Below are positions 46 to 5,665 of a stretch of 42,156 bases of DNA, piece by piece. The stretch spans positions 1 to 42,156 of the forward strand of contig JAKPYU010000768.1 in NCBI GenBank assembly GCA_029568995.1. Reading direction: 5' to 3'. Numbering within the stretch: the first letter of the stretch is position 1; the number at the start of each line of letters is the position of its first letter. The position numbers and the translations under genes are program-made. The stretch comes from Candidatus Omnitrophota bacterium. Lineage in GTDB: Bacteria; Hinthialibacterota; Hinthialibacteria; Hinthialibacterales; JAKPRU01. The notes under the pieces are model-generated. The model saw nothing but the letters and a program-made list of their open reading frames with translations. It searched no databases and was not told where the DNA came from.

Positions 46-85
46 GGTGGGCTAGCCCGCAGACGGGCTTGAGCCCACCCTACTT
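46..85 (-). repeat. Dispersed repeat family A, copy 1
   Basis: Read on the minus strand this matches plus-strand copies at 26279-26337 and 29304-29367. The shared core is GTGGGCT, a short variable stretch, CCCGTCTGCGGGCT and CCACC or TCACC. The outer arms (GGTGGGCT and AGCCCACC) and the inner arms (CCCG and CGGG) pair, so each copy can fold as a hairpin. This copy touches the stop codon of the M56 gene (84-86). Confidence 0.65.
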
Positions 86-2198
86 ATTGCCGAATCAATT
101 GCAGGGCGACCGTCGCGGCTCCACGGACCTGTTCGTAGTCGTCTTTCTCGGCGTGTTGAAGCGCGGGGATGGCCTCTTTTGCGGCAACACCCATCCAGCC
201 GAGCGCAATGGCCGCCTGGAAACGTACCGGCCAGTCCGTATCCCCCAGTGCTTTAATCAGCGGTTGCAACAGGGGAGCCGCATCCGTGCCCAGCCGTCCG
301 GTCATCCGCGCCAGGGTTTTGGCGGCAAGTTCCCGTTCCTTCCACTTCTCGGCCTGCAAGTCCTCGATGAGCACAGGGATCACCGCCCTCGCTTTCGGCC
401 CCATGTTCCCAAAGGCCCTGGCAGCTCTTTCTCGCGCATTCCAGTCACCGTATCGGTACGCAGTCAGCAATCCGGGAACCACATCCGGGAGATAGGGGCC
501 AATGTATTCGAGGGCAGACAGGGCATGATACCGAATCTCCGGCGAAGGATCTTTCATCATCTCATTCAGCAACGGAACGATGTCCTTGGCATCCTCGTTC
601 ATAAACGTAGCCGCGTGAATCGCATGAAGCCGCATGTCGTCTTTTTTGTCGAGAAGCAGCTCCCGAATGGCGGGAATGGACGCCTTTCCCAGGTGGGCAA
701 GCAGGAAAGCGGCATTTGCCGCCGGACCGCCGTCACTAATACTACGCGACATAAGTCCGCTGATCGCTTCGCCATTCCTCGCTTCATAGTCCTCACGAAT
801 GCGCTGCATGAGTCCGGGAATCGCCTCGCCGTTCCTCGGACCGAAAAATTGAATCGCGCGGGAGAGTTCCTCCCAGCTCGGCTCCTCGCGGTCATTCAGA
901 ATCTCGATCCATTCCTCGTAGGTCTTGCCGTTGAAAACGTTCTCATCGGTGGTGTCGGAGATAATCAGACGCGAAACGCCGACCATCATGCCCTGCTGCG
1001 CCCTGGCGATTTCCGCCATCTTGGCGGCTTCTTCTTCCGCTGCAGATCGCTCTGACCGGGAACACTCCCCCAGGGGCAGCAGAACCGCGCCGATCAACAG
1101 CAGCAGCGTGTAATCCCTCCACAGGAGTCTTCTGCGGAATCGTGTTCCATTCTGTAAAAGTCGGACAACACGAGTTCGGAGGGAACGTTCGGATTCAAAA
1201 ATGCCAAGTAATTGAAACGAGGGCAGCGGAGACTGCATCAGCGCCGCGACATTCACCAGCGCGCGGCAATACGGCGCGGGATCGTTCCCCATCACGGCGG
1301 CGGTCTGTTCATCGACCGCCTGCTCCCGCACAACGGCGATTCGCCGGTTGGCAAGCCAAAGCAGCGGATGAAAGAAATAGATCCCTTGCAGGACTGCCTG
1401 AATACAGCCGATCCATGAGTCCAGACGTCGGATGTGGATCAATTCATGCAGCAGAATGGCCTCCAGTTCCGACGATAGAAGATCCCGTGTGATCCGTCGT
1501 GGCAGAAGAAGCCGGGGGGACAGCAGTCCACAAATCGCGGGGCCGGCAAGATCCTCCGCATACCGGCAGACGATTTTCCTTTTCAGGCCGATTCGTGCTT
1601 TGCATCGTTCCACAATTTCCAGCATTTCCGGCTCAACCGGCTCGGTCCGGTTCAGCAGGATTCGCATCTTGCCCAGATGAGCGCAAAGAAGAATTGCGAA
1701 AGCGGCCACGCCACTAAGCCACAATATGAAAAGCGTAATCCTCCAATCCGGCAGGGAGAAATGAAACCCGCTTTCCACAGGCGAATTTGCAGAAACCACT
1801 GTCTCGGTGGGAGTCTTTGACCCGCTCGGCGACATCTCTGTTCTTGCAGGCTGCATGCCCATCACCGGGGAAACACCCGCCGGGCGGGGCTGGCCTGTAG
1901 CAATGGGGGTATCGGGTTGCGCGTGGCTGATGGTTGGCGGGTTCCACCACTGCCAGTCGAAGAATTGTTCTGCGCCGATCCATCCCGGCAGAGAAACCGG
2001 CAGGACCAGTTTCAGCAGAATCAACAGCAGCAGGGCGTACCGGAAAATCGCCGAGATTTTCCGGCGCAGCGCCCACTCACACAGCAGCACCCATGCGATC
2101 ACCGCGCTGGATTGCGCCAGCATCGCTCCTGCAAAGTTTGCCCATTTTTCCGCCGTGTCCTCAATCAACAATGAGAGCAACTCGACAGGGATATCCAT
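84..2198 (-). CDS. BlaR1-like M56 membrane peptidase with C-terminal HEAT repeats
   Basis: This 704-residue protein is a probable membrane-bound sensor protease. Hydrophobic segments lie near residues 29-45, 53-73 and 154-174. The zinc-protease signature HELIH is at 251-255 in the context AILLHELIHIRRLD, typical of M56 (BlaR1/MecR1) peptidases. Another hydrophobic segment near 365 follows. In place of the penicillin-binding sensor domain of classical BlaR1, the C-terminal third (about 420-704) is made of HEAT-type helical repeats with motifs such as ARAFGNMGPKARAVIPVL and AAIALGWMGVAAKEAIPAL. The gene starts 13 nt after the BlaI-like repressor gene, so the two form an operon. By family analogy the protease cleaves the repressor when a signal arrives. 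The signal here is unknown, and beta-lactam sensing is not supported because the ligand domain is absent. Confidence 0.9.
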   Translation of the reverse strand: MDIPVELLSLLIEDTAEKWANFAGAMLAQSSAVIAWVLLCEWALRRKISAIFRYALLLLILLKLVLPVSLPGWIGAEQFFDWQWWNPPTISHAQPDTPIATGQPRPAGVSPVMGMQPARTEMSPSGSKTPTETVVSANSPVESGFHFSLPDWRITLFILWLSGVAAFAILLCAHLGKMRILLNRTEPVEPEMLEIVERCKARIGLKRKIVCRYAEDLAGPAICGLLSPRLLLPRRITRDLLSSELEAILLHELIHIRRLDSWIGCIQAVLQGIYFFHPLLWLANRRIAVVREQAVDEQTAAVMGNDPAPYCRALVNVAALMQSPLPSFQLLGIFESERSLRTRVVRLLQNGTRFRRRLLWRDYTLLLLIGAVLLPLGECSRSERSAAEEEAAKMAEIARAQQGMMVGVSRLIISDTTDENVFNGKTYEEWIEILNDREEPSWEELSRAIQFFGPRNGEAIPGLMQRIREDYEARNGEAISGLMSRSISDGGPAANAAFLLAHLGKASIPAIRELLLDKKDDMRLHAIHAATFMNEDAKDIVPLLNEMMKDPSPEIRYHALSALEYIGPYLPDVVPGLLTAYRYGDWNARERAARAFGNMGPKARAVIPVLIEDLQAEKWKERELAAKTLARMTGRLGTDAAPLLQPLIKALGDTDWPVRFQAAIALGWMGVAAKEAIPALQHAEKDDYEQVRGAATVALQLIRQ

Positions 2199-2211
2199 GG
2201 TTTTCCCCCAT

Positions 2212-2604
2212 CTATGGATTTTCGCCCGCCGGATGGCGGTCGATGAGTTCTCGCAGTTGGTTCAGTTCCTTTTCAGAGAGATCTTCGTGTTCCAGGAGAA
2301 AATGGATCATCGGCGGCAGCGCCCCCTCGAAAGCATTGTCCAGCACCTGTTTCAGTGCGCCTTTCCGCGCCTGGTCCGGCGTGATCGCCGCCGAATACAG
2401 GATCAGGTTGCGGATTCGTTTCGTGGAAAGCAGGCCTTTGCGGACCATGCGGTCCATCATGGTCTTGACCGTGCTGTAGCTCCATCCGGTGCTGGATTCG
2501 AATTCTTCTTTGACCGAAACGGCGGAGACAGGCTGAGTGCGCCACACCACACGCATGATCGCCCATTCCCCATCGCTGAGTTTCGTATTCTTCTTTGTCG
2601 GCAT
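2212..2604 (-). CDS. BlaI/MecI/CopY-family transcriptional repressor
   Basis: This 130-residue protein has the N-terminal winged helix typical of the family: LSDGEWAIMRVVW at 9-21, and the recognition region SYSTVKTMMDRMVRKGLL at about 43-60. The C-terminal helices should mediate dimerisation. Length matches the family norm of about 125 residues. The ATG at 2604 is preceded by a GAGGT ribosome site. Just upstream is a promoter with an overlapping TACA-N2-TGTA palindrome, the half-site pattern of BlaI operators, so autoregulation is likely. It is the first gene of a two-gene operon with the M56 protease, which is expected to inactivate it by proteolysis. Confidence 0.92.
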   Translation of the reverse strand: MPTKKNTKLSDGEWAIMRVVWRTQPVSAVSVKEEFESSTGWSYSTVKTMMDRMVRKGLLSTKRIRNLILYSAAITPDQARKGALKQVLDNAFEGALPPMIHFLLEHEDLSEKELNQLRELIDRHPAGENP

Positions 2605-2619
2605 GATTCACCTCGATTT

Positions 2620-2654
2620 ATGTAAAGTATACTCTACACTTGTAAAGACGTCAA
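2620..2654 (-). promoter_or_regulatory. Promoter and BlaI-type operator of the repressor/protease operon
   Basis: On the minus strand there is a -35 box TTGACG (2654-2649), a 17-nt spacer and a -10 box TATACT (2631-2626). The palindrome TACACTTGTA (2635-2644) sits within the spacer, and TGTA (2621-2624) together with TACA (2635-2638) forms a second, wider dyad across the -10. TACA...TGTA is the known core of BlaI/MecI operators. Binding here would block RNA polymerase, consistent with autorepression. Confidence 0.75.
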
Positions 2655-2964
2655 GAGGGTTTTGTGGATTTTTTTGGGGGAAGGAATCTTGCAAACAGCA
2701 GACCGGCGGAGCCGGTGATTGGGATCAAGAAAGCATCGTGTCTCGCGCGATGGGCGAAGGAGTGAAGATACGCACAACCCCCTCTGTGTCTCCCTCAAAC
2801 TTTGGGGGAGAGGTTCCTTCCCCGAAGATCGGGGGAGGTTAGGTGGGGGTTGACCGGATACCACAAGACTCCTCGGTGTGACGGTTGCAGGCGAACTTTC
2901 TTAGGAAGAGCAGCCCGGAGTCTGCGAAGGGCGGCGACGTGGCGATCTCAACGTGCAAATCGAA
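2655..2964. repeat. Intergenic stretch made of dispersed repeats
   Basis: No gene is evident between the BlaI promoter and the end of the GrpB-family gene. The stretch holds pieces seen elsewhere in the window. At 2703-2736 is a 34-nt block starting CCGGCGGAGCCGGTGATT that recurs at 19593-19626 with one or so differences. At 2816-2838 is a CCTTCCCCGA/TCGGGGGAGG hairpin very like 26244-26266. At 2907-2950 is a block containing GCAGCCCGGAGTCTGCGAAG that recurs at 19663-19706. The order and orientation of the first and last blocks are the same at both sites. Confidence 0.65.
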
Positions 2965-5056: not shown

Positions 5057-5665
5057 ATGAGAACAGATCGGATCGGATTTACCCTCATTGAGCTCCTGAT
5101 CGTGGTTGCGATTATCGGTATCCTTGCCGCGATTGCGGTGCCGAATTTTCTCAATGCCCGTGTTCGTGCCAACGTAGCCCGCGCGGAGGCGGACTTTCGC
5201 AACCTGAGCGTCGCTCTGGAATCCTATCGGATCGACAACAACCGCTACCCGAACGATTTCGACCAGGAGGGGACACAGCCGGACGAATTAGGATTCTACA
5301 GTCTGACCAGCCCGATAGCCTACATATCCACTATCCCCGTAGACCCGTTTATTGTGAAAGAAGGAATTATTCCCGGAATCGTTTTCAATGATGAGGATGT
5401 CTCCTATTATGAGATGGGTTCCGGGTCGGATAATGAAGTGGAGAATGTGCCTGTTGTTCACACCTTCTATCTGGAATGTGTCGGGCCGGATCATGAGGAT
5501 AACGGTGGCGGGCCGGATTCGTTTCCGTTTATCACAAATGTGAATCGCTACAATCCGAGTAACGGGATTGTTTCGCGTGGGGATGTTGTCGCGTTTGGGG
5601 GTTCCTGGACAAGCGGCTGTTTTTACCTGGACGGAAAACAAATCGGAAACCGCTGCACACAATGA
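5057..5665 (+). CDS. Type IV/II secretion-type pseudopilin (PulG-like)
   Basis: This 202-residue protein has a short leader MRTDRIG, then FTLIELLIVVAIIGILAAIA. That is the classic prepilin peptidase site (G/F) with the conserved Glu at +5 and a hydrophobic helix. It continues VPNFLNARVRANVARAEADF, LESYRIDNNRYP and a C-terminal globular part. A longer frame opens at 5015, but the ATG at 5057 has GGAG at 5044-5047 with suitable spacing and puts the leader at 7 residues. Processing by a prepilin peptidase encoded elsewhere would place it in a pilus or type II secretion pseudopilus. No other secretion gene is nearby. The stop is only 13 nt from the stop of the convergent esterase gene. Confidence 0.9.
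   Translation: MRTDRIGFTLIELLIVVAIIGILAAIAVPNFLNARVRANVARAEADFRNLSVALESYRIDNNRYPNDFDQEGTQPDELGFYSLTSPIAYISTIPVDPFIVKEGIIPGIVFNDEDVSYYEMGSGSDNEVENVPVVHTFYLECVGPDHEDNGGGPDSFPFITNVNRYNPSNGIVSRGDVVAFGGSWTSGCFYLDGKQIGNRCTQ

Follow-up and report, generated by a model that had tools for sequence, protein, structure and literature searches.

A BlaI-family repressor gene paired with an M56 metalloprotease gene that encodes a HEAT-repeat tail in a Candidatus Omnitrophota bacterium

BlaI/BlaR1 is familiar as a switch of antibiotic resistance, and in Staphylococcus as a sensor of penicillin. What such a switch might respond to when its membrane protease carries a different outer domain is the question raised by a two-gene locus in a Candidatus Omnitrophota bacterium (GTDB lineage Hinthialibacterota; Hinthialibacteria; assembly GCA_029568995.1). 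The locus lies at one end of contig JAKPYU010000768.1, whose entire 42,156 nucleotides form the stretch analysed here, referred to as the window. A preliminary description had read positions 84-2654 as a BlaI gene with a BlaR1-like protease gene whose sensor region is an array of HEAT repeats. We slightly favour the view that this pair works by regulated proteolysis in the manner of BlaI/BlaR1, with the HEAT repeats as its receptor domain. The description held up for the protease core, its predicted topology, the tail and the operator; the HEAT tail itself proved less special than that description suggested, being one of many tails, and the modularity of these tails is a more general result than the HEAT tail alone.

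The repressor, the protease and the HEAT-repeat tail

The promoter and both genes occupy the minus strand of window 84-2654. The blaI gene (2212-2604, minus) encodes a winged-helix repressor of the BlaI/MecI family, 130 residues long, as judged from its sequence, Pfam and alignment to solved chains, and 13 nt separate it from a gene (84-2198, minus) for a 704-residue membrane metalloprotease of the M56 (BlaR1) type with a HEAT-repeat tail. From this arrangement the two genes read as a two-gene operon; a third gene may lie beyond the contig end, because the contig stops 83 nt after the M56 stop codon. The blaI product scored 109.2 bits against Pfam Penicillinase_R (curated cut-off 22.6, E 2e-31), and it aligned nearly end to end with its closest solved chain, MecI 1okr (7.6e-16), and with solved BlaI (2.7e-13). 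The protease matched the Pfam Peptidase_M56 profile over residues 24-345 (128.9 bits, cut-off 31, E 2.9e-37). These sequence matches assign the repressor to the BlaI family and the protease to M56, as had been claimed.

Alignments of M56 proteins placed an HEXXH zinc motif at residues 251-255 (HELIH; 1434-1448, minus) and an EXXXD motif at residues 292-296 (E292xxxD296; 1311-1325, minus), which are the signatures given for BlaR1 (PMC9834060, in excerpt). H251, E252, H255, D260, E292 and D296 were invariant in alignments of 12 and 51 M56 proteins; in the rows from named genomes the invariance of HExxH was a selection condition of the scan described below, and E292 and D296 were unselected. In a full-length AlphaFold model built on 51 sequences, the mean predicted local distance difference test score (pLDDT) was 81, with most of the M56 core at 92-98. 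Hydropathy and charge predict four transmembrane segments (TM1 to TM4) with flanking charges of -2/+2, +2/-1, -1/+3 and +5/-1; on this basis the N-terminus would lie outside, as would the tail, and the active site of the protease would face the cytosol. TM4 (residues 358-376; 1071-1127, minus), modelled as a helix over 360-373, is the point past which the chain is predicted to be outside. In the place of BlaR1 EL1, the loop between TM2 and TM3 (about residues 67-151; 1746-2000, minus) is some 80 residues long and Pro-rich, with 13 prolines in residues 70-150, and is predicted to be disordered.

The extracytoplasmic tail, from about residue 425 to 704 (87-926, minus), is composed of HEAT repeats of about 33 residues, predicted with low-to-middling confidence up to about residue 500. 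Pfam, phmmer, pLDDT and fold matches agree on a confident HEAT solenoid of about six repeats over residues 501-704 (87-698, minus). Pfam matched HEAT_2 in three stretches (1.1e-27), with HEAT_2, HEAT, HEAT_EZ and HEAT_PBS all above their cut-offs, and the tail had a period of 33 residues (mean BLOSUM62 score 0.27 at lag 33; all other lags from 25 to 49 at or below -0.55). A structure prediction for the tail had been proposed in the preliminary description, and both models of it were alpha-solenoids, confident over 501-704 and weaker before. Residues 366-704 modelled alone from a single sequence gave a helical array, with helices past model residue 62, a mean pLDDT of 62, a centre above 90 (up to 95) and both ends low; in the full-length model the pLDDT was 86-95 over residues 501-704 and 40-74 over 421-500. 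On the models, about six HEAT repeats appear firm and one or two further repeats are likely. The closest solved folds in the PDB were alphaReps, designed armadillo proteins, importins and PP2A scaffolds.

A penicillin-binding domain in the tail was looked for and is rejected. No Pfam match to a transpeptidase or beta-lactamase was found in the protease at E 0.1, the part of the tail outside the confident solenoid (about residues 380-500), predicted to be helical, leaves too little room for a class D domain, and no penicillin-binding protein (PBP) chain was among the 50 PDB fold matches listed, an absence that is no test by itself. The NCBIfam model blaR1_generic scored 108.5 bits against a cut-off of 400 and covered only model positions 104-305 of 585, and the M56 core resembled BlaR1 8exp only weakly (E 7.7e-4). 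With no sign of the defining sensor, and with an NCBIfam score this far below its cut-off, we read the protease as something other than a BlaR1 beta-lactam receptor, one whose logic is probably similar; the earlier claim of a HEAT array in place of the penicillin-binding domain thus agrees with Pfam and with the models. A second candidate, that the HEAT tail had been copied from another protein of the same genome, found no support, as the tail matched only itself.

Outer domains of other BlaI-M56 pairs

The genome holds five M56 matches and six BlaI matches; five BlaI genes adjoin the five M56 genes, and the sixth, on contig C155, is solitary. The five tails gave no mutual BLASTP match at 1e-3. 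Besides the HEAT repeats of the window they comprise LVIVD plus FG-GAP (C486), a repeat with an Sgo0707_N2 match (C777), and two tails with no family over the cut-off (C670 and C466). Across the class, M56 proteins were present in 12 of 14 genomes, with 33 of 35 matches above the Pfam cut-off, and a search seeded with the window BlaI found a BlaI gene beside M56 at 30 of the 33 loci (all except L071, L084 and L090). Tails from 28 of these loci besides the window were compared with Pfam as 29 pieces, leaving out L071, L074, L088 and L089, which had no usable tail. They contained WD40, Kelch, LVIVD, CarboxypepD_reg, DUF4097, beta-helix, PD40 and HEAT domains, and eight pieces had no family; HEAT was above the cut-off in L068 and weak in L072, there alongside SecDF_P1_head. 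At L074 (2431-4597 of G001:C21), in the same genus, the M56 gene is split by an in-frame TAG and stands beside an intact BlaI gene.

The same was seen further afield. Named genomes were scanned with an alignment as query (the window protein alone as query found nothing), the motif HE[LF][AI]H[IV][RK]RxD was required, and the best 80 of 580 by similarity to the window protease were kept; selected for likeness to that protease, this set gives no measure of how frequent penicillin-binding tails are across M56. It yielded 82 M56 frames with the motif, and for 77 of them a BlaI frame lay on the same strand no more than 400 nt away. Among 25 of 123 families listed for 78 of the tails were CarboxypepD_reg (15), TonB_C (4), HEAT_2, PD40 and SecDF_P1_head (3 each) and ankyrin (2), and a transpeptidase was absent among those 25. 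Seventeen tails scanned singly matched ankyrin, secretin, NAGPA, M23, DUF4097, CARDB and others, or in several cases no family, and none matched a transpeptidase. No transpeptidase was found in any of the 46 tail pieces, class and named, that were scanned singly (for L063 and L065, among the 25 matches listed). In L159, from Vicinamibacteria, the BlaI-M56-HEAT arrangement recurs with an HEAT_2 score of 255.6 bits and no gap between the genes, and the L095 tail has an HEAT_2 match below the cut-off. The M56 tail of L100 (5009-6805, Limisphaerales) matches secretin, with secretin N-domains below the cut-off. The other BlaI-M56 pairs, in the class and in named Planctomycetota, Acidobacteriota and other phyla, thus have the same chassis, and L159 also has the HEAT tail, but most of their tails are of other folds (WD40, Kelch, ankyrin, CarboxypepD_reg and others) or of no known family. 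By domain content, HEAT is one case among many tails on what appears to be one receptor chassis in several phyla.

A quick tree of 106 M56 cores bears on how these tails came to be distributed. The four HEAT rows (window, L068, L072 and L159) needed four changes, and placing them in a single clade was rejected (approximately unbiased test, p-AU 0.002); when the weak L072 was dropped and 37 of the 106 rows were used, a clade of the remaining three was also rejected (p-AU 5.5e-7). Because the one-clade constraint was rejected, HEAT tails seem to have been gained or lost more than once. The cores nearest to that of the window by tree path came from Planctomycetota, mostly Phycisphaerae, with a best core identity of 38%. 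Two sister receptors with 99% support, L094 (ankyrin) and L098 (PD40/WD40), are 66% identical in the core but have only 32 residues of tail in common. The core of L105 is 64-68% identical to those of L093, L096, L097 and L099, whereas its tail matches none of theirs at 1e-3. Free exchange is opposed by two cases. The tails of L093, L095, L096, L097, L099 and L101, all from Planctomycetota, are mutually related (24-51% over 170-320 residues; L093 and L096, for example, by BLASTP at 32% over 260 residues, E 1.6e-25, with a global identity of 29%), and in L009 and L069, from one genus, the tail was kept, the cores being 92% and the tails 72% identical. We take tail exchange among the receptors to be partly shown by these sequence comparisons. 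The tails of L096, L097 and L101 have no Pfam match anywhere.

Promoter, operator and surroundings of the locus

A scan of positions 2500-2800 found TTGACG-17-TATACT at 2654-2626 on the minus strand, with 0.2 such promoters expected; its -35 hexamer TTGACG lies at 2649-2654 and its -10 hexamer TATACT, after a spacer of 17 nt, at 2626-2631. Within the spacer is the putative operator core TACA-AG-TGTA (2635-2644, minus), the sole copy of TACANNTGTA in the 42 kb window (shuffle mean 0.10; at least one copy in 9 of 100 shuffles). Where the -10 hexamer ends downstream, a TTTACA half-site (2621-2626, minus) might be a second operator half. The TACA/TGTA form of this dyad, here in blaI's own promoter, is typical of Staphylococcus BlaI and MecI, and the complete promoter with such an operator was as the preliminary description had stated.

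That description had also proposed a genome-wide search for further sites. In the 6.3 Mb genome TACANNTGTA occurred at 16 places, against 57 for a reversed control, and TTTACANNTGTA at 3 against 8. With sites rarer than the control for both patterns, a wide TACA-N2-TGTA regulon is unsupported. Fifteen of the 16 TACANNTGTA places were read (the one on C751 was left out), and no recognisable beta-lactamase gene lay downstream at any of them. One is the window itself and one is on C340, within 135 bases identical to the window. Nine are inside frames of at least 130 codons (on C30, C282, C291, C301, C318, C402, C430, C448 and C606), that on C430 within a prepilin-like gene. The C173 site, at the end of its contig, shares its flank with C301, and the C749 site has only a 142-codon frame, 180 nt off. 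The C157 site is 27 nt ahead of a gene that matches nucleotidyltransferases and, weakly, a winged helix. The C180 site is 47 nt ahead of a thioredoxin-NHL gene (L224 3897-5821) and extends as TACATTTGTAGAATAT, which differs from TACAAGTGTAGAGTAT of the window at three positions only. The pattern extended in this way was matched exactly at three places (window, C340 and C180); no place had one mismatch and 34 had two, compared with 27 at up to two mismatches for the control. C180 is therefore the sole other exact match besides the C340 duplicate; as the pattern was picked after C180 had been seen, it is a lead and not a test. The regulon looks tiny on this evidence, comprising the operon's own promoter and, tentatively, the thioredoxin-NHL gene. 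A regulon of the own operon only has a precedent in Clostridium thermocellum BlaI_1845 (PMC8457756, in excerpt). Dyads of the form TACTAT-N4-ATAGTA and similar stand ahead of BlaI in L067, L069, L075, L077 and L081, and each BlaI-M56 pair may have its own operator variant.

The 135 bases on C340 (L016, position 7245) lie at the end of that contig and correspond to window 2602-2736, which includes the promoter, the operator and the blaI start codon; a transposase-like gene lies upstream of them on C340. From the identity of the bases, the C340 end appears to be a strain variant of the window or an assembly branch or duplicate of it. Directly upstream of the blaI promoter, window 2703-2950 is a dispersed repeat; two other genomes of the genus contain dozens of matching pieces, at about 78-97% identity. 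At the other end, positions 1-83, past the M56 stop, contain inverted repeats (CTCCCCAATCTTGGGGAG; GTGGGCT...AGCCCAC) that may be a terminator or a dispersed repeat. Positions 5066-5251, at the start of a prepilin-like gene, have many 71-89% identical pieces in both relatives, indicating a large prepilin family. Synteny with these two genomes was limited to dispersed repeats and short conserved pieces, and no Rfam families or tRNAs were found in the window.

A possible envelope-sensing switch and its alternatives

Starting from what sequence and prediction provide (operon, operator, protease motifs, topology, HEAT fold, and a chassis fused to many tails), we infer a course of events that runs from BlaI binding at the operator, through sensing of a protein or peptide ligand by the tail, to cleavage itself. 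BlaI, bound to TACA-AG-TGTA within its own promoter, would keep the operon low. The M56 protease would sit in the inner membrane with its active site in the cytosol and the HEAT solenoid outside. A protein or peptide partner bound to the solenoid groove, or lost from it, would shift the tail relative to the membrane and so activate the protease; BlaI would then be cut, releasing the operon and any other target. The suggestion that the signal is a protein or peptide draws on what HEAT and armadillo solenoids usually bind.

Several observations weigh against this proposal. In S. aureus BlaR1 the TM2-TM3 loop sits in the penicillin pocket, and AlphaFold placed the loop end in the sensor (PMC9834060, in excerpt); here the loop is disordered in the AlphaFold monomer model (pLDDT about 43-61 over residues 71-150), leaving a loop-displacement step unsupported. 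S. aureus BlaI is cut between Asn101 and Phe102 (PMC9834060, in excerpt), a bond that aligns with F102-L103 here, so that Leu and not Phe follows the presumed cut. Among 108 related BlaI rows the residue after the aligned bond is Leu in 53, Ala in 35, Met in 6 and Phe in 6; by alignment the cleavage position appears hydrophobic or small, not conserved as Phe. The Z scores of the 50 best fold matches listed for the tail (17.1 to 14.9) are barely above the best Z of 14 that mostly helical models typically reach through a shared common arrangement. Some tails of other receptors are enzymes or secretin, and a tail thus need not be a sensor. Finally, no close relative turned up in which the solenoid groove might be seen to be conserved: with residues 1-453 as query, 97 other genomes and the organism's own gave no other match above 33% identity.

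The strongest rival, which we consider rather unlikely but would take seriously, makes the HEAT tail an anchor or docking scaffold, for instance to an envelope protein, and leaves sensing to the TM2-TM3 loop or the membrane. The length and proline content of that loop fit this explanation, as do the enzyme and secretin tails and the different tails on close receptors (L094 and L098; L105 and its four relatives). Against it, the C-terminal domain is the sensor in the sole family member with a solved mechanism (PMC9834060, in excerpt), and tails are also kept, as in L009/L069 and the six related Planctomycetota tails. That the pair is a paralogue in decay or without expression we consider quite improbable: there are dispersed repeats directly upstream, and the two other genomes of the genus contain no close orthologue (best matches 29% identical), but both frames are intact, the catalytic residues are kept and the promoter with its operator is good.

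Since beta-lactam switching is what a BlaI-M56 pair is known for, and the operator is of the TACA/TGTA type, a beta-lactam might yet be the signal, sensed by way of a partner PBP or of a penicillin-binding fold that escaped notice, with a beta-lactamase under control. The profile searches, the solenoid that fills about residues 501-704 and the operator places read all disfavour this, and we give it a shade less credence than decay. The least probable alternative casts BlaI as a CopY-like metal-responsive repressor with the protease incidental. CopY_TcrY was indeed the best NCBIfam match of BlaI, but its 76.5 bits are under the curated cut-off of 121.95. CopY requires a C-terminal Cys motif, and the 130 residues of BlaI include no cysteine; metal sensing of this kind is rejected.

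The preferred reading, a regulated-proteolysis switch with a HEAT receptor domain, has its nearest counterparts in Staphylococcus BlaI/BlaR1 and MecI/MecR1. Shared with these are a BlaI-family repressor adjoining an M56 gluzincin protease, four membrane segments, the TACA/TGTA operator form and, as predicted here, a cytosolic active site with the C-terminal domain outside. The HEAT solenoid replaces their penicillin-binding, class D beta-lactamase-like domain, no beta-lactamase target was seen at the 15 sites read, and the loop in the EL1 position, which spans residues 56-96 in BlaR1, is longer here, at about 80 residues, and undocked in the model. C. thermocellum BlaI_1845 and BlaI_0696 likewise have BlaI and BlaR1-like genes in their own autoregulated operon and a very small regulon, but the paper, in the excerpt at hand, assumes beta-lactam sensing, and the half-sites are GACTAT/GTCTAT, not TACA/TGTA (PMC8457756). 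The HEAT-like alphaRep and PBS-lyase HEAT repeats, closest in solved sequence and structure, are alike in their two-helix repeats of about 33 residues but are designed binders or soluble proteins, not receptor tails. In the excerpts at hand, M23 proteins with an M56 domain are mentioned (PMC9662197), BlaR proteins with class D domains are treated (PMC9045261), and a review has only BlaR1/MecR1 represent M56 (PMC7593790). Literature searches, with some result lists covered in part, found no description of M56 proteins with HEAT tails; PMC12578637, judged in excerpt, was matched by chance. Domain databases surely display M56-HEAT-type architectures.

More broadly, we consider it an evenly balanced proposition that BlaI-M56 is a general transmembrane signalling chassis with exchangeable extracytoplasmic receptors, comparable in logic to histidine kinases, in which beta-lactam sensing by BlaR1 would be one special case and the HEAT member a direct envelope protein or peptide receptor controlling expression through repressor cutting. 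A two-gene chassis with an intact protease, and with no penicillin-binding domain seen, carries many outer domains in several phyla, which is a warning not to label each BlaR1/M56 gene by default as one for beta-lactam resistance. Should the tails be receptors, the chassis would link an external signal to repressor cleavage in few steps, a route that is seemingly little studied beyond beta-lactams.

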